Assembly: GCA_019637155.1 (NCBI GenBank)
Contig: JAHBWE010000006.1
Location: 372,001-436,000 of the forward strand
Source of the DNA: Labilithrix sp.
Lineage (GTDB): Bacteria; Myxococcota_A; Polyangia; Polyangiales; Polyangiaceae
DNA length: 64,000 nt
Reading direction: 5' to 3'
A program made the translations under genes and the position numbers. This document shows, piece after piece, positions 39,717 to 51,739 of the stretch. Positions within the stretch are counted from its first letter, which is position 1. Every line of letters begins with the position of its first letter. The notes under the pieces are model-generated. The model was not told where the DNA came from and ran no database searches. It worked only from the letters and a program-made list of their open reading frames with translations.

Positions 39717-41393
<1,677 letters not shown>

Positions 41394-41402
41394 GGGCGAG
41401 AC

Positions 41403-41954
41403 ATGGCGCACACGATCGAAGAGGCGAAGTCGGGACGCGCGGGCTGCCGGACGTGCCGGAAGCCGATCGCGAAGGGGGAGCTGCGCTTCGGCGAGGAGAC
41501 CGAGAACGCGTTCGGCGACGCGGGGGACACCACCTTCCGGTGGCATCACCTCGCGTGCGCGGCCGGGTCGAAGTCGGACGAGCTCCGCGCGACGCTGCCG
41601 GCGTTCGAGGTGGCCGTGCCCGCGGAGCAGCGTGCGGAGCTGGAGAAGCTCATGGCGGAGGCGGACGCGAAGAAGCCGCCGCCGTTCCCGCACGCCGACA
41701 AGGCGCCCACCGGGCGCGCGCGGTGCCAGGCCTGTCAGGAGAACATCGCGAAGGGGGAGCTCCGCGTCGCGTTCGAGCGCGAGATCGAGCGCGGGATGAC
41801 GATGCAGAAGGGCGCGGGGTACCTGCATCCGAAGTGCGCCGCGGCGTTCATGGAAGAGAAGGGGACGAGCCACGAGGAGCTCACGGAGGGGATCCGCAAG
41901 AACACGCGCGATCTCTCGGACGCGGAGCTCGATCGGCTCTTCGCCGAGGTCTGA
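41403..41954 (+). CDS. protein with two PARP-type zinc fingers
   Basis: A 183-residue protein with two tandem PARP-type zinc fingers. Finger 1: C15-x2-C18 (CRTCRKPIAKGELRFG) with H49-x2-C52 (HHLAC). Finger 2: C108-x2-C111 (CQACQENIAKGELRVAF) with H142-x2-C145 (HPKC). The C-x2-C-x30-H-x2-C spacing and IxKGELR core are those of PARP-1 and DNA ligase III fingers, which recognise DNA strand breaks. No catalytic domain is attached. It lies nine bases after ettA and is probably co-transcribed. DNA- or RNA-end binding is inferred from the fold. Confidence 0.82.
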   Translation: MAHTIEEAKSGRAGCRTCRKPIAKGELRFGEETENAFGDAGDTTFRWHHLACAAGSKSDELRATLPAFEVAVPAEQRAELEKLMAEADAKKPPPFPHADKAPTGRARCQACQENIAKGELRVAFEREIERGMTMQKGAGYLHPKCAAAFMEEKGTSHEELTEGIRKNTRDLSDAELDRLFAEV

Positions 41955-42026
41955 GCTCCTAGCTCCTCGCGAAAAAAAAAACGGGGCGGGTTTACAGTCC
42001 GGGCCGGTGCTTGCGTCCATGGGATC

Positions 42027-42944
42027 ATGATTCGACGGACCTCGTTCTTCTGCGTGCTCGTCGCCGCCGCCGGCATCTATGCCTGTGACTCGCTGACCGA
42101 TCCGAGCCAGTCGCGGACGCCGGACGACGCGGTGACGAGCAGCGTCTCGGGCGCGCTCGTCGGCTCTGTTCCCGCGAACACGCGCGTCGCGCTGGTGTGG
42201 CGGAGCGCGCAGGGCGGTGTCCTCGCGCGGGGCGCGGACGTCGCGATCGTGGACGGGCGCTTCACGATGGAGCTCGGGGCGCTGCCGGACGCCTACTTCG
42301 CGCCTCTTGGCGCGATCGAGGCTACCGTGGACGCGAGCGTCAGCGAGAGCGTCGACTCCGGCGGGCCGATCGACGCCTCCGTCGGTACGCGATCCCTTCG
42401 TCCGCGCGCGGACGTCGGCGGCGCGATCGTCAACGAGAGGCTCGAGTCCGCGCACGGCGGCTTCGTCGCGTACGTGGACACGAACGGAAACGGCCAGCTC
42501 GACTTCGATCCGGCCACCGGCGAGACGACGGACCAGATCCTCGGCGGCAATCAGGAGCTCATGCTCGTCTTCCTCCGCAAGGGCGGCGCGCTCGACTACG
42601 AGCGGCTCCGCGATCGCACCGGCATGCTCCCGCGTGCAGGATACAACCTTCGCTGGAGCTGGGAGTCACGCTGGCTCCCGCTCGACAGCGTCGAGCTCCG
42701 GCTCGGGAGCGAGCCGCCGCTTCCTTACGAGGTCTGCGGTGGTCTCCCGCTCGGCAGCGCGGGTTACGAGTCGCTTTGTCAGGCGGGCTCGGTTCCAGAC
42801 GGCTGGCCGATTCCGGACAGTGGGGTCTACGACGTGGGCGACGCGAACATCGGCGTCAGCGTCGACTCCGGCTACTACCCGTCGGTCCCCGACGCCTCGG
42901 TTGGCGACTACGACGCCAGCTTCGACATCCCCGACGCCGGCTAA
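42027..42944 (+). CDS. lipoprotein of sigma/caspase operon
   Basis: A 305-residue lipoprotein (lipobox IYAC). An N-terminal beta domain follows (SGALVGSVPANTRVALVWRS), then YVDTNGNGQLDFDPATGE, a Ca-binding-loop-like DxNxNGxxD segment, and a C-terminus rich in Asp, Ser and Tyr. Its TAA stop is followed at once by the GTG of the ECF sigma gene with no spacer, so it belongs to the same transcription unit. It may be the envelope sensor or ligand of the system; there is no direct evidence. Confidence 0.7.
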   Translation: MIRRTSFFCVLVAAAGIYACDSLTDPSQSRTPDDAVTSSVSGALVGSVPANTRVALVWRSAQGGVLARGADVAIVDGRFTMELGALPDAYFAPLGAIEATVDASVSESVDSGGPIDASVGTRSLRPRADVGGAIVNERLESAHGGFVAYVDTNGNGQLDFDPATGETTDQILGGNQELMLVFLRKGGALDYERLRDRTGMLPRAGYNLRWSWESRWLPLDSVELRLGSEPPLPYEVCGGLPLGSAGYESLCQAGSVPDGWPIPDSGVYDVGDANIGVSVDSGYYPSVPDASVGDYDASFDIPDAG

Positions 42945-43487
42945 GTGACGGGGCGCGGTCTCTCCGCGGACGAGGTGAGCCAGGTGTATCACCGCTACGG
43001 CGCGCTCCTCGAGCGGCGCTCGCGCCTGCTCATGCGCGACGTGTCGCTCGGCGAGGACGCGGTGCAGGAGCTGCTCGCGTCGCTCTTGCGCCGTGGAGAG
43101 ACCTTTCGCGCGGCGGAGTCGCCGTATCGCTGGCTCTGTCGCGCGGTGGACCGGACCTGCCTCGACCTGCTCCGCCGCGGACGGCGCGTGCGCGAGGCGG
43201 TCCCGCTCGACGCGCTCGATCCGATCGGGCCCGCCCCCGGCGTCGACGCGGAGGCGCGCGTCGCGGCACTGCAGGAGCTCGCGCAGCTCGGGCCGGAAGA
43301 GCAGGCGCTCGCGATCATGTTGTTCGTCGACGGGATGACGCAGGGCGAGGCGGCGACGGAGCTCGGCGTCTCGCGCGTCACGGTGAACAAGCGGGCTCAG
43401 GGGATCCGCGCGCGGCTCGGCCTCTCGCCCTCGCCTTCGTCCTCGTCCTCGCCCTCGTCCTCGCCTTCGTCCGAAGAGGAGACATGA
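42945..43487 (+). CDS. ECF RNA polymerase sigma factor
   Basis: A 180-residue ECF sigma factor from a GTG start adjacent to the preceding stop. Region 2 lies at about 15-80 (LGEDAVQELLASLLRRG, PYRWLCRAVDRTCLDLLRR) and region 4 at about 105-160 (LGPEEQALAIMLFVDGMTQ, LGVSRVTVNKRAQGIRARL). The last 20 residues are a Ser/Pro run encoded by near-perfect short tandem repeats. It overlaps the anti-sigma gene by ATGA, the standard ECF/anti-sigma arrangement. Confidence 0.88.
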   Translation: MTGRGLSADEVSQVYHRYGALLERRSRLLMRDVSLGEDAVQELLASLLRRGETFRAAESPYRWLCRAVDRTCLDLLRRGRRVREAVPLDALDPIGPAPGVDAEARVAALQELAQLGPEEQALAIMLFVDGMTQGEAATELGVSRVTVNKRAQGIRARLGLSPSPSSSSSPSSSPSSEEET

Positions 43488-44137
43488 CGATCCATCCGAA
43501 CAGCCTCGACCTCGAAGCCTTCGCCGTCGGAGAGACGAGCGCGCGCGTCGAGGAGCACCTCGGCGCGTGCGACGCATGCCGCACGTTCGTCGAGCGGCTC
43601 GGCGCGGCGAAGCCTGCCGCGCCGCGCGCTCCGCGCTCCTCGGGCGTGCGAAGGGTCGCCGGTGTCGTCGTGCCGCTCGCCGCCGCCGCGCTCTTCTTCT
43701 TCGTCCTCCGCCGGCCCGCGCCGCCGGAGACCGCGCCGGCGCCGGCGCCCTCGATCGCGAACGAGGCGCGCGAGCCGGGCACCACGTTCAAGGGTGGGAT
43801 CCAGGTCGCGGTGATCCGCGAGCGCGGCGGCGAGCAGCGGCGCTTCGTCGAGGCGGCGGGGATCCGGCCGGACGATCGGCTGCGCGTGGAGATCGCGATC
43901 GATCGCGAGCAGGTCCTCGTCGCGGGCGTGCTCGGGGACGACGGGAGCTGGCTCGAGCTGATGGGCGCCGCGACGAAGTCGACGGGGACCCACTTCTCCG
44001 AGCGGTCCGCGCGCGTCGACGCGACGCCGCTCCGCGGGATCGTCCTCGTGGGCTCTCCGGAGGCGGTCGCGCTCGCGCGCACGACGCGGCGCTTCGACGA
44101 CGTCCGCACCGTGCGGCTAGACTGGCAGGCGCCGTGA
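43484..44137 (+). CDS. zinc-binding anti-sigma factor, membrane anchored
   Basis: A 217-residue protein. Residues 1-45 form a ZAS/zf-HC2 domain with the H-x3-C-x2-C motif (EEHLGACDACRTFV), which grips the ECF sigma factor. One transmembrane helix follows (GVVVPLAAAALFFFVL, about 60-78), then a 135-residue periplasmic beta-rich domain (GIQVAVIRERGG, LVGSPEAVALARTTRRF). It is coupled on both sides: ATGA with the sigma gene and GTGA with the caspase gene. Signal-induced release of the sigma factor is the expected role. Confidence 0.87.
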   Translation: MTIHPNSLDLEAFAVGETSARVEEHLGACDACRTFVERLGAAKPAAPRAPRSSGVRRVAGVVVPLAAAALFFFVLRRPAPPETAPAPAPSIANEAREPGTTFKGGIQVAVIRERGGEQRRFVEAAGIRPDDRLRVEIAIDREQVLVAGVLGDDGSWLELMGAATKSTGTHFSERSARVDATPLRGIVLVGSPEAVALARTTRRFDDVRTVRLDWQAP

Positions 44138-45684
44138 TCGTCCGCGTCGTCGTCGGCCTCCTCGTCTTCCTCTTCGCGCCGCTCGCGTATGCGGAGCCGG
44201 TGCGCATCCTCATCGCGGCGGGGAACAAACAAGGGCTGCCCGCCGAGCGGCCGCTGAAGTTCGCGGACGCGGACGCGAAGCACGTCCGCGACGTCCTCGT
44301 CTCGCTCGGCGGCGTGAGGAGCGAGCACGCGTTCTACCTCGCGGAGCCGACGCGCGCGACGCTCTTCTCCGCCGTCGATCGCGCGAGGGTCGAGGCGCAG
44401 CGCCACCGCAGCGACGAGGTCACGCTCCTCTTCTATTTCAGCGGCCACGGCGATCGCGAGGCGCTCCACCTCGCCGGCGATCGCGTCCTCGTGACGGAGC
44501 TCTCGCAGAAGCTCGGCGAGGTCCCGGCCGCGCTGCGGATCGCGGTGACCGACGCGTGCCGCGCGACGCGGGAGAAGGGCTTCGCCGCCGACGAGCCGTT
44601 CGCGATCTCGCCCGCGGTGCTGCCGCAAGCGACGGGGCAGGTCTGGCTCCACGCGTCGAGCGACGGCGAGGCGGCGCAGGAGTCCGACGAGCTACAGGGC
44701 GCCATCTTCACGCACGCGTGGCTGAGCGGGCTCCGCGGCGCGGCGGACGCGAACGGCGACGCGCGCGTCACGCTCGACGAGAGCTTCGCCTTCGCGCACT
44801 CGCAGACGCTCATCCGCTCCTCGAAGAGCAGCGGCGTCACGCAGAAGCCGGAGGCCGTGATCCAGCTCCGCGAGGCCGCGCCCGTCGTCATCACGCAGAC
44901 GACGGCGCGCATGTCGACGCTCTCGCTCCCGCAGGCGCGCGACGCACATTTCCTCGTCTACTCCGCGGCCGCGAAGAGCGTGCTCTCCGAGCTGTGGGGC
45001 TCGCCCGAGCGGCGCCTGGCGATCAAGGTGCCGCCCGGTCGCTACGTCGTGCAGCGGCGGATCGCCGGCGCCGGCGCGGTCGCGACGATCGCCCTCGCGG
45101 AGGGAGAGGAGCGAAGGCTCGAGGCGCAGGACTTCTCCGTCAGCCCGCTCGAAGCGCTCGCGCGGAAGGGCGACTTCGTGGAGGTGGGGCCGCGCGATCG
45201 GCCAGGGCCTCACGAGCTCGCGGTGGGATGGGACGCCGGCGGCGACAGTCGAACCGGCTTCTCGCACGGACCGCGCGCCGGCTACGCGTACGCGTGGTCG
45301 CGCTTCGCGCTTTCCATCGGCGGCGCGCTCGCGTTCGCGGACCGCACGGTGGCGACGCCGAACGAGACGGAGAGCGAGGCGCTGACGAGCGGCTTCGGCC
45401 GCGCGGGCTTCGAGGCGCGCTTCCCGCTCGGCGCGCGTCTCGTGCTCCGCGCCGGCAGCGGCGCGCGCGCGGGCGTCGTCTCGCAGCGGCTCGCGGGGGA
45501 GACGAAGAACGCCTTCGCGATCGGCCCCGAGGTCATGGCGGCGGCGCGGATGGGGCTCGGCCGCTCCTTCTTCGTCGACGCGGGCGCGACCGGCGGCCTC
45601 GTCTTCGTGAGCGAGGCGCAGTCGCTGCGCGGGATCTTCGGCCTCAGCGGGACGCTGGCGCTCGGCACGACGCTCGGACGCTGA
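44134..45684 (+). CDS. exported caspase-family protease with C-terminal beta-rich domain
   Basis: A 516-residue protein with signal peptide ending LAYA (residue 20). Residues about 22-250 are a C14 caspase/metacaspase-like domain with the His-Cys dyad H105 (FSGHG) and C142 (TDACRAT), and a metacaspase-type Ca-loop (DANGDARVTLDE). A middle beta domain (about 255-345) is followed by 165 residues of Gly-rich alternating strands (ALSIGGALAFAD, AFAIGPEVMAAARMGLG) like an outer-membrane barrel. The GTG start overlaps the anti-sigma stop. It should act in the periplasm or at the outer membrane, not the cytosol. Confidence 0.82.
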   Translation: MIVRVVVGLLVFLFAPLAYAEPVRILIAAGNKQGLPAERPLKFADADAKHVRDVLVSLGGVRSEHAFYLAEPTRATLFSAVDRARVEAQRHRSDEVTLLFYFSGHGDREALHLAGDRVLVTELSQKLGEVPAALRIAVTDACRATREKGFAADEPFAISPAVLPQATGQVWLHASSDGEAAQESDELQGAIFTHAWLSGLRGAADANGDARVTLDESFAFAHSQTLIRSSKSSGVTQKPEAVIQLREAAPVVITQTTARMSTLSLPQARDAHFLVYSAAAKSVLSELWGSPERRLAIKVPPGRYVVQRRIAGAGAVATIALAEGEERRLEAQDFSVSPLEALARKGDFVEVGPRDRPGPHELAVGWDAGGDSRTGFSHGPRAGYAYAWSRFALSIGGALAFADRTVATPNETESEALTSGFGRAGFEARFPLGARLVLRAGSGARAGVVSQRLAGETKNAFAIGPEVMAAARMGLGRSFFVDAGATGGLVFVSEAQSLRGIFGLSGTLALGTTLGR

Positions 45685-49188: not shown

Positions 49189-50382
49189 TTACGGCCGACA
49201 CTGGGTCAAGCGCTCCGCGTGCGTCACGAGCGCGCGTGCGCTCATCTTGCCTTTGTAGACGTAGAGCGAGGCGGGCGCGTCTTCGCCGAGGGCCTCTGCG
49301 CTGACGCGGAGGCGGGAGCTGACCGCGAAGACGACGCGCGCGCCGAGGGCGCCCGACTCCGCGAGCTCGATGCGCTTCCACACCGCGTCGCGGCTCCAGT
49401 AGCCGAGCACCTCGACGTAGACGACGTCCTTCGAGCCCTTCTTCGTCAGCTCGAGGTCCGGGATGCACACCCCGCGGCCGGGTACGTCGAGGATCGCGGT
49501 CGCCGGCTTCGCGCGCCACGCGCCCTTCTGCGTCGCGATCGCGGCGACGAGCTCGCGGACCTCGTCGCTGAGGTGTGGCTCGGCGTCGGCCGACGCGCCC
49601 TCGTTCGTCGACGCGAGGCGGAACACGAGCGGATCGCGCTGCTTGCCCCAGCGGATGTCGGCCGTGAGCGACCAGCGCTCGAGCGGACGGAGCGCGCCGA
49701 GGACGAGCGCGAGACGAAGTCCGTACTTCGTGACCGCGTCGAACATCGAATACGGGCCGTCGATCGTGATCGTCCAGCCGTCGCCGGTGCGCTCCGCAGA
49801 GAAGAGGAGCTGATGGAACTTGAGCTTCGCGAAGAACGCGCGGACGAGGCCGGCCGACGAAGAGGAGAGCTCGCACGTGACGCGGACCGCGGTGAGCAGC
49901 ACCGCCTGCGCTTGCCCGAGCTCCCACGACTCCACGAGCGCCGCCGGCGTGACGGCGGGCGGCGCTTGCAGCACGTGCTCGCTCTTGAGGTCGGAGAAGA
50001 GCGCGCGCTCGACGTGGACCGGATCGCCGGCCGCCGCGACGAGCGCGGCGCGATCGAAGGTGCCCTCCTTCCGCGCCTTCGCGGCGGCGAGGAAGAGCGT
50101 GCGCCGGAGCGCGATGGGATCCGCCTCCGAGGAGGCCTCGAAGGTGCACGCGTCGGCGGCGAGCTTCTTGAGGCCCGCGGCGAGCTTCGGGCGGCGCGCC
50201 TCCGCGGTCGCGGCGCCCCACGCGTCTTCGACCTCGTCGCGACGGCGGCCGACGAGGGCGTGCGCGTCGTCGAGGAGCGCGGTCGCGATCGCGATCGCCT
50301 CCGCGCGGCCCTCCGCGTCGAGCGGGCGGAGGAGGAGCTCGCCGTCCTTGCGCCGCGCGTCGACGAGGTCAGCGGTAAGCAT
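49189..50382 (-). CDS. Bax1-type DUF790 nuclease
   Basis: A 397-residue protein of the DUF790 family, whose archaeal member Bax1 is the nuclease partner of XPB. An N-terminal domain with PYSMFDAVTKYGLRLALVLG is followed by a PD-(D/E)xK-like nuclease core: CIPDLELTKKG and VYVEVLGYWSRDAVWKRIEL. It overlaps the helicase gene upstream by 14 bases, so the two subunits are made together. With XPB it forms a helicase-nuclease thought to open and cut DNA beside lesions or bubbles, an alternative to UvrABC-type repair. Confidence 0.87.
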   Translation of the reverse strand: MLTADLVDARRKDGELLLRPLDAEGRAEAIAIATALLDDAHALVGRRRDEVEDAWGAATAEARRPKLAAGLKKLAADACTFEASSEADPIALRRTLFLAAAKARKEGTFDRAALVAAAGDPVHVERALFSDLKSEHVLQAPPAVTPAALVESWELGQAQAVLLTAVRVTCELSSSSAGLVRAFFAKLKFHQLLFSAERTGDGWTITIDGPYSMFDAVTKYGLRLALVLGALRPLERWSLTADIRWGKQRDPLVFRLASTNEGASADAEPHLSDEVRELVAAIATQKGAWRAKPATAILDVPGRGVCIPDLELTKKGSKDVVYVEVLGYWSRDAVWKRIELAESGALGARVVFAVSSRLRVSAEALGEDAPASLYVYKGKMSARALVTHAERLTQCRP

Positions 50383-51739
50383 CGTGCTCGCGCCTCCGGT
50401 CGCTCGTGAACGTCTCCGTCGTCTGCTTCGTCACGACCTCGTAGAGGAGCGCGCGCTTGCCCTCGCGCTGGCGGAGGATGCGGCCGAGGCGCTGCACGTG
50501 CTCGCGCACGGAGCCGGAGCCGGAGAGGACGACCGCGACGTTTGCCTCCGGGACGTCGACGCCTTCGTTGAGGACCTTCGACGTCGCGATCGCGGTGTAG
50601 TCGCCGGCGGCGAAGGCGGCGAGGATCTCGCTCCGCTCCGTCACCTTGGTCTGGTGCGTGATGACGGGGACGAGGAAGCGGCGCGCGATGAGGTGCGCGG
50701 TGGCGTTGTCCTGCGTGAAGATGAGCGTGCGATCGCTCCGGTGTTGATCGAGGAGGTGCTCGAGCCACACGAGCTTCGCGGTCGCGGCGAAGGCGAGCTC
50801 GCGCTGGCGGCGGTAGGCCTTCATCGCGCGGCGGCCCTCCGCGCTGCGCGCGCTCCGCATCACGAACTCGCCGAAGCCGCGCGGCGACGACATCGAGATG
50901 TGGTTCATGCCGACGAAGTCGCGGTAGATCTTCCGCTCCGCGTCGTGCTCCGCCCGCTCCTCCGGCGTGAGGTCGACCTCGACGCGCTCCGTCTCGTATT
51001 CGGCGAGGTACTCGCCCGCGAGCTCGCCGATCGCGCGGTGGTAGACGACGGGGCCGACGAGGCGATCGAGCGCGGCCTCCAGCCCGTCGGCGCGCTCCGG
51101 CGTCGCGGTGAGGCCGAGGCGGAAGGGCGCGAGCGACAGCTTCGCGGCGAGGGCGTAGCTCGCGCTCGGGAGGTGGTGGACCTCGTCGAAGACGAGGAGG
51201 CCGAAGCGCGCGCCGAGGTGCTCCATGTGGAGGTGCGCCGAGTCGTAGGTCGTCACCGTGATCGGGTGGACGACGTGATCGCCGCCGCCGACGACGCCGA
51301 CCGGCACGCCGAACGTCGCGCGGAGCACGTCGTACCACTGCCGCACGAGCTCCAGCGTCGGCGCGACGACGAGCGTGCTGCGCTTCCGGTCGTCGATCGC
51401 CATCGTCGCGACCTGCGTCTTGCCCGCGCCGGTGGGGAGCACGACGACGCCGCGGCCTTGCGCCTTCTTCCACGCCGCGAGCGCCTCGCTCTGGTACGGC
51501 CGCGGCTCGCGGTGCACGAGCGCGCCCGCCACTTCGCCGTACTTGCGCGCTTCGTCGACGTACTCGATGCCGGCGCGGCGGAGCGCGAGGACCGTCGGCG
51601 CGTACGCCATCGCCGGCGCGCGATGGCACGCCGCGCGCGCGTCCCACGCGAGCATGCTCGGGAGACGGTCGTCGTCCTTCGCCGCTCCGAGGAGGGCGAG
51701 GGTTCCGTTCTCGAACCGAAGAGTGACAGGCGCGCTCAG
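50369..51739 (-). CDS. XPB-type DNA helicase
   Basis: A 456-residue SF2 helicase if begun at CTG 51739, or 428 from ATG 51655. Motifs: Walker A LPTGAGKT, DEVHH (motif II), LGLTATPER (III), STKVLNEGVDVP (V) and QRLGRILRQ (VI). The N-terminal damage-recognition part reads LRFENGTLALLG then MLAWDARAACHRAPAMAY. Because the LRFxxGTL strand belongs to the family and lies before the ATG, the upstream CTG (six bases after the preceding stop) is favoured; no ATG, GTG or TTG is available there. It pairs with the overlapping Bax1 gene. Confidence 0.87.
   Translation of the reverse strand: MSAPVTLRFENGTLALLGAAKDDDRLPSMLAWDARAACHRAPAMAYAPTVLALRRAGIEYVDEARKYGEVAGALVHREPRPYQSEALAAWKKAQGRGVVVLPTGAGKTQVATMAIDDRKRSTLVVAPTLELVRQWYDVLRATFGVPVGVVGGGDHVVHPITVTTYDSAHLHMEHLGARFGLLVFDEVHHLPSASYALAAKLSLAPFRLGLTATPERADGLEAALDRLVGPVVYHRAIGELAGEYLAEYETERVEVDLTPEERAEHDAERKIYRDFVGMNHISMSSPRGFGEFVMRSARSAEGRRAMKAYRRQRELAFAATAKLVWLEHLLDQHRSDRTLIFTQDNATAHLIARRFLVPVITHQTKVTERSEILAAFAAGDYTAIATSKVLNEGVDVPEANVAVVLSGSGSVREHVQRLGRILRQREGKRALLYEVVTKQTTETFTSDRRREHDAYR

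Follow-up and report, generated by a model that had tools for sequence, protein, structure and literature searches.

Organization of the locus

Four genes coding for a lipoprotein, an extracytoplasmic function (ECF) sigma factor, a membrane anti-sigma factor and an exported caspase were analysed on a 64,000-nt stretch of contig JAHBWE010000006.1 of Labilithrix sp. (the window, with positions counted from its first nucleotide). Labels of the form L### designate DNA regions fetched from related genomes. The gene set spans 42027-45684 on the + strand and its reading frames were confirmed. A first-pass annotation had described the four genes as coupled without spacing, which is the case: the GTG start of the sigma gene lies directly after the TAA stop of the lipoprotein gene, and the sigma/anti-sigma and anti-sigma/caspase junctions are 4-base overlaps (ATGA and GTGA, respectively). 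This abutment, together with the two overlaps, indicates that the message is probably translationally coupled and supports the assignment of the four genes to one operon. The features of the locus, including those predicted by AlphaFold2 (AF2) models and their local confidence score (pLDDT), are as follows.

41991..42017, + strand: predicted ECF-type promoter TTTACA-N15-TGCGTC (-35 element 41991-41996, -10 element 42012-42017)
42027..42944, + strand: lipoprotein, 305 amino acids, lipobox IYAC; homologues beside many of the related loci, no Pfam family matched
42945..43487, + strand: ECF sigma factor, 180 amino acids, GTG start; Sigma70_r2 and Sigma70_r4_2 above Pfam cut-off
43484..44137, + strand: membrane anti-sigma factor, 217 amino acids; AF2 model, HxxxCxxC motif, profile matches
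43790..43795, + strand: Lys103-Gly104 codons (aag ggt), candidate cleavage site in the periplasmic linker of the anti-sigma factor; conservation in 83 homologues
44134..45684, + strand: exported caspase, 516 amino acids, GTG start; Peptidase_C14, AF2 model, Foldseek/VIA matches
44566..44580, + strand: post-cysteine loop motif of the caspase, residues 145-149 (T-R146-E-K148-G149), candidate self-processing site; conservation, low pLDDT
44746..44781, + strand: EF-hand-like loop D205-x-N207-x-D209...E216 of the caspase, possible Ca2+ site; conservation, weak EF-hand match

Conservation of the gene order

The search for the same gene order in other Myxococcota, which had been suggested as a check in the first-pass annotation, showed it to be conserved. 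Relatives are present in 51 of the 108 genomes of Polyangiaceae, where the DNA around the matches shows the same order almost throughout, and the exported caspase of this family was found at E<=1e-20 in 101 of 284 genomes and 78 of 188 genera of the phylum. The sigma-anti-sigma-caspase order was observed for 80 of 93 non-redundant caspases and at 18 of 20 loci taken one per family from 20 families, these fractions not being unbiased estimates, since the loci were drawn from searches for the caspase or the anti-sigma factor and strong matches were preferred in the set of 20. The remaining caspases correspond to three loci with the order caspase-(lipoprotein)-sigma-anti-sigma, four contig ends and six other cases, among them L135, with a sigma factor and a short membrane protein with RSKG, and L141 and L150, where both the sigma and the anti-sigma gene are absent. 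A caspase-first arrangement occurs at L080, L082, L083 and L085; in L080 a different lipoprotein comes next, then the sigma and anti-sigma genes.

Relatives of the ECF sigma factor, searched with phmmer and hidden Markov models, lie upstream of nearly all homologous caspases. With 57 Sigma70_r2 genes in the 10.1-Mb source genome, the chance that one lies on the same strand no more than 1.5 kb upstream is about 0.4%, so that the sigma-caspase neighbourhood is not due to chance. Three further caspases of the source genome (C23, C2 and C10), which are of cytosolic type and outside this family, served as a control: none has a sigma factor nearby. Conversely, almost all full-length anti-sigma factors of this type in the 108 Polyangiaceae genomes adjoin a caspase, and 4-base overlaps predominate at both junctions across the homologous loci. 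Pairwise distances of the caspases correlate with those of the sigma factors (0.77) and of the anti-sigma periplasmic domains (0.67), the permutation maxima being about 0.13. The order is kept across tens of genera and many families, and also in metagenome-assembled genomes (MAGs) of the Spirochaetales (L016) and of another deltaproteobacterial lineage (L015). These data show a phylum-wide module, carried by many soil bacteria of the Myxococcota and composed of an ECF sigma factor, a membrane anti-sigma factor and an exported caspase, often with a lipoprotein. The source genome also carries, at a distance of about 208 kb on this contig, a paralogue of the module (L047, 4850-8859; G000:C6:201000-217000), whose caspase is 46% identical. 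L086, on C32, is a third locus that combines a caspase with sigma and anti-sigma genes. A search for carriage of the module by plasmids gave no match.

The exported caspase

The caspase matches Peptidase_C14 (PF00656) with 46.1 bits for a cut-off of 21.4 (E=6.5e-12) and begins with a signal peptide visible in the sequence at residues 1-20 (MIVRVVVGLLVFLFAPLAYA), in agreement with the export proposed in the first-pass annotation. Likewise, the catalytic dyad reported there is intact, H105 and C142 each being invariant in 83 of 83 homologues. The AF2 model (mean pLDDT 88.8) comprises a caspase domain (about 22-240), a beta domain (about 245-345) and a barrel (358-516). The caspase fold was recovered by Foldseek/VIA, with procaspase-7 (Z 20.2, root mean square deviation 2.6 over 201 residues), metacaspase-4 (Z 19.6) and MALT1 among the matches; the family profile matches metacaspases, and a phmmer comparison of the caspase with PDB sequences returned nothing. 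An anti-phage defence role was also considered and set aside, the only sign of it being a weak generic caspase match in PADLOC (2.6e-4).

The S1 set is acidic, with D140 in 83/83 homologues, E183 in 52/52 and D47 aligned with the helix-1 Asp of metacaspases; E183 may correspond to Glu500 of MALT1. The Asp two residues before the catalytic Cys and the helix-1 Asp are among the residues that set the basic P1 preference of MALT1 and metacaspases (PMC4357240). From these acidic residues, the caspase is predicted to cleave after Arg or Lys. In the loop after Cys142, K148 is found in 70 of 83 caspases, mostly as R-x-K-G, and residues 148-163 are disordered in the model (pLDDT under 50). The loop after the catalytic cysteine is the place where caspases process themselves, and the motif is absent from the C23, C2 and C10 caspases. 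Further downstream, the EF-hand-like loop is strongly conserved (D205 in 82/83, D209 in 77/83 and E216 in 81/83 homologues) and weakly matches an EF-hand protein (E=0.08), which makes it a possible Ca2+ site.

The C-terminal region, described in the first-pass annotation as a Gly-rich beta domain that places the protein in the periplasm or outer membrane, corresponds to residues 358-516 and is modelled not as a soluble fold but as a transmembrane-type barrel of eight long antiparallel strands (360-514); with the gene order conserved as well, neither of the two refuting outcomes named in that annotation was observed. Foldseek/VIA matched the barrel to NspA (Z 19.5), OmpA (Z 19.3) and OmpX. An autotransporter-type surface caspase was rejected for the reason that the barrel has eight strands and matches the OmpX/OmpA types. 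An aromatic C-terminal residue is common, although not universal, in outer-membrane barrels; as expected for such barrels, 52 of 74 caspases of the family end in Phe, Trp or Tyr, compared with 35 of 453 further proteins encoded at these loci. The model is thus consistent with a barrel that would tether the caspase to the outer membrane on its inner side, the catalytic domain being periplasmic.

Sigma and anti-sigma factors

The 180-residue sigma factor has regions 2 and 4 only (Sigma70_r2 and Sigma70_r4_2), as in ECF (group IV) sigma factors. The anti-sigma factor consists of a cytoplasmic, sigma-binding anti-sigma domain (7-41), one transmembrane helix (about 62-75), a linker and a periplasmic beta-sandwich (107-217); its AF2 model (pLDDT 86) is confident in the beta-sandwich and of low confidence in the linker. 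Its designation in the first-pass annotation as a zinc-associated anti-sigma (ZAS) factor is borne out by the motif H25-x3-C29-x2-C32, whose three residues are nearly invariant in the family, and by the matches of the family profile to the ChrR, RslA, RsiW and DdvA structures, but not by the zf-HC2 score of the protein in the window, which stays below the cut-off (17.1 versus 22.2 bits). From its adjacency and domain content, this protein probably binds and inhibits the cognate sigma factor.

DUF4384 was matched by 10 of 32 anti-sigma homologues (best 7.4e-8). For the periplasmic domain, Foldseek and VIA gave no specific structural relative, only generic beta-sandwiches with Z at most 8.8. At other loci, a single reading frame joins a caspase to DUF4384 (L161) or the two are encoded by neighbouring genes (L172 and L185), so that the association of these domain types extends beyond the module. 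Another locus, L119 (4938-5579), codes for a membrane-anchored DUF4384 protein that has neither an anti-sigma domain nor a caspase neighbour.

Immediately ahead of the first strand of the folded periplasmic domain, linker position 103 is K in 69 and R in 12 of 83 homologues and position 104 is G in 82 of 83. The R-x-K-G motif is common to the caspase loop and the anti-sigma linker. A K-to-R co-switching between the two is visible by eye; it was not used, the independent changes on the tree being too few. At the place of K-G, the L119 protein has RG. Locus L117 (4827-6657) has a sigma factor and a DUF4384-type anti-sigma factor and no caspase, a small lipoprotein coming next; it looks like a module that has lost its caspase yet retained the K-G motif.

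Lipoprotein and promoter

With a profile built from the lipoprotein of the window and its relatives, a homologous lipoprotein was found at 32 of the 53 sigma-anti-sigma-caspase loci with enough flanking sequence, upstream in 22 cases, downstream in eight and overlapping in two. A homologue also adjoins the two caspases without sigma and anti-sigma genes, which indicates that the lipoprotein is a partner tied to the caspase and not to the sigma factor alone.

The lipoprotein start codon lies 9 bases past the -10 element, pointing to a very short or leaderless 5' end. The exact sequence TTTACA-N15-TGCGTC precedes the same gene in the window and in L006, L007, L009-L012 and L198, and 11 of its 12 letters are kept before this gene in the more distant L049 and L050. 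It occurs once in the 10.1-Mb genome, at the operon; only 0.03 matches with up to one mismatch would be expected in the window, and among 26 genomes eight exact sites lie at the module and three elsewhere. In other subgroups the upstream region holds ECF-like pairs of another sequence, such as GTTAAC...CGTCTT in front of the paralogue L047, which suggests insulated parallel circuits. When all loci were taken together, promoter-dyad enrichment gave nothing clear, the motif emerging only among close orthologues. These sequence data are consistent with transcription of the promoter by the operon's own sigma factor; positive autoregulation, with the operon itself as the main target, would be the simplest reading. 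Since the only exact promoter of the genome lies before the operon, the circuit appears self-contained. Neither the recurrence of the lipoprotein nor this apparent autoregulation was noticed in the first-pass annotation, which also missed the operon report of 2012 discussed below.

Proposed mechanism and alternative explanations

Taken together, these data lead us to propose, with about even confidence, that the operon encodes a self-contained circuit of the cell envelope in which a protease gates the sigma factor, the caspase cutting the anti-sigma factor; since the sigma factor would drive the operon that encodes the caspase, the latter would be both trigger and product of the loop. The link between protease and anti-sigma factor is supported indirectly, by the shared R-x-K-G, the DUF4384-type domain, the co-inheritance and the dedicated promoter. 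An envelope signal would activate the caspase, perhaps via the lipoprotein, Ca2+ or the assembly of the barrel. The activated caspase would process itself after R-x-K148 and then cut the anti-sigma factor after Lys103, between the transmembrane helix and the DUF4384-type domain. Breakdown of the anti-sigma factor would be completed by a site-2 protease together with cytosolic proteases, and the freed sigma factor would transcribe its own operon, so that lipoprotein and caspase would be produced in a burst. In favour of this scheme, M50 site-2-type proteases do occur. In its fullest form, in which the outer-membrane caspase serves its own ECF sigma circuit as site-1 protease, cuts itself and the anti-sigma factor at the same R-x-K-G, and the phylum signals across the envelope via caspases with positive feedback, this proposal is tentative and we hold it at somewhat less than an even chance.

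Several observations weigh against it. The caspase of the window ends in Arg, without the aromatic residue, and is an exception in its family, and the periplasmic domain of the window itself has no direct DUF4384 match. K103-G104 might be conserved for folding instead of cleavage: K-G is retained in L117 without a neighbouring caspase, and one or two DUF4384 proteins other than anti-sigma factors have an RG near this position. The K/R co-variation of the two motifs is not independent of descent. Finally, the caspases of L141 and L150 belong to the same family and have the loop motif, sigma and anti-sigma genes being absent.

The caspase could instead be an output only, the sigma factor being freed by an unrelated DegS-like site-1 protease that senses stress, and the caspase remodelling or killing the envelope or acting on other cells. 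Ordinary ECF circuits do rely on separate proteases, and the operon is apparently the sole exact target of the promoter, so that caspase and lipoprotein would be its main products; however, this explanation, which we regard as rather unlikely, does not account for the strict K/R-G at a caspase-type cleavable site of the anti-sigma linker, the same as in the caspase's own loop, nor for the fusion or adjacency of caspase and DUF4384 elsewhere without this module. The latter associations, as well as the correlation of 0.67 between periplasmic-domain and caspase distances, would also fit a coupling by binding and not by cutting, in which the DUF4384-type domain inhibits or anchors the caspase, whose release at the outer membrane signals through the anti-sigma factor. 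Such a coupling would leave unexplained why a basic-Gly motif borders the folded domain, and we consider it improbable. As for a purely positional association, by hitch-hiking of a duplicated gene set in which caspase and sigma factor are functionally unlinked, family members such as L141 and L150 are what it would predict, but the order maintained over tens of genera, many families and the L016 and L015 MAGs, the tight overlaps and the operon's own promoter make it very hard to sustain.

Neighbouring genes

Just upstream of the operon, a gene at 41403-41954 (+ strand) codes for a 183-residue protein that matches zf-PARP over two stretches (E=1.9e-25) and so has a pair of zinc fingers of the PARP type, a domain uncommon in bacteria; it adjoins an ABC-F ATPase gene (39717-41393). 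Further downstream, at 49189-51655 (- strand), a DUF790 protein is encoded next to an XPB-type helicase with a damage-recognition domain, resembling the XPB-Bax1 nuclease pair.

Comparison with known systems

The bare association of the two genes is not new, since operons predicted to contain a caspase homologue and a sigma-70 factor were noted in Myxococcus xanthus, Anaeromyxobacter, Haliangium and Sorangium, with speculation on cell death (Asplund-Samuelsson et al. 2012, PMC3501461). These are very probably in part the same gene set; no mention of an anti-sigma factor, DUF4384, export with an outer-membrane barrel, a lipoprotein, a promoter or a cleavage motif was found there. In the open-access literature searched, no paper was found on an outer-membrane barrel caspase or its anti-sigma factor, and beyond the 2012 operons the other elements of the module appear unreported there.

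Among bacterial circuits, the module resembles sigmaE-RseA-DegS/RseP of E. coli by its membrane anti-sigma factor with a periplasmic domain and by the proposed periplasmic site-1 cut followed by a site-2 cut. However, DegS is an inner-membrane PDZ serine protease, whereas the protease here is a caspase-fold cysteine protease with an outer-membrane barrel, encoded within the operon that it would control. The ECF54 group also has its sigma factor near a caspase-like protease, with CHAT, subtilase or carboxypeptidase neighbours, but is described as acting without an anti-sigma factor (PMC8999054); the module, which includes a membrane anti-sigma factor, is set apart by this description. With metacaspases, orthocaspases and MALT1 (C14B), the caspase shares the fold, the His/Cys dyad, the Asp two residues before the Cys, the acidic S1 and the possible Ca2+ site. 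It differs from them by its signal peptide and OmpX/OmpA-type barrel, no C14B member with an outer-membrane barrel being found in the same literature; as far as this search extends, an outer-membrane barrel bearing a caspase domain is a new architecture.

The roles of bacterial caspases are mostly unclear, cell death being the usual guess. In this module such a protease acquires a location, the outer membrane, as well as a predicted substrate in which the target residue can be named, its own promoter and a readout, which makes its role directly testable in one organism. The one known precedent is the type III-E Craspase, composed of Csx29 (TPR-CHAT), Csx30 and CASP-sigma, in which an ECF-like sigma factor is relieved of inhibition once its inhibitor has been cut by a protease of caspase fold (PMC10028731). 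Craspase differs in being cytosolic and RNA-activated, with a CHAT and not a C14 protease, a soluble inhibitor and no membrane parts; for the caspase of the window, Pfam gives Peptidase_C14 and neither CHAT nor TPR, which places it outside the Craspase type. If the proposed circuit is true, the precedent of Craspase would be widened to a general theme, that of caspase-fold proteases as release switches of ECF sigma factors.

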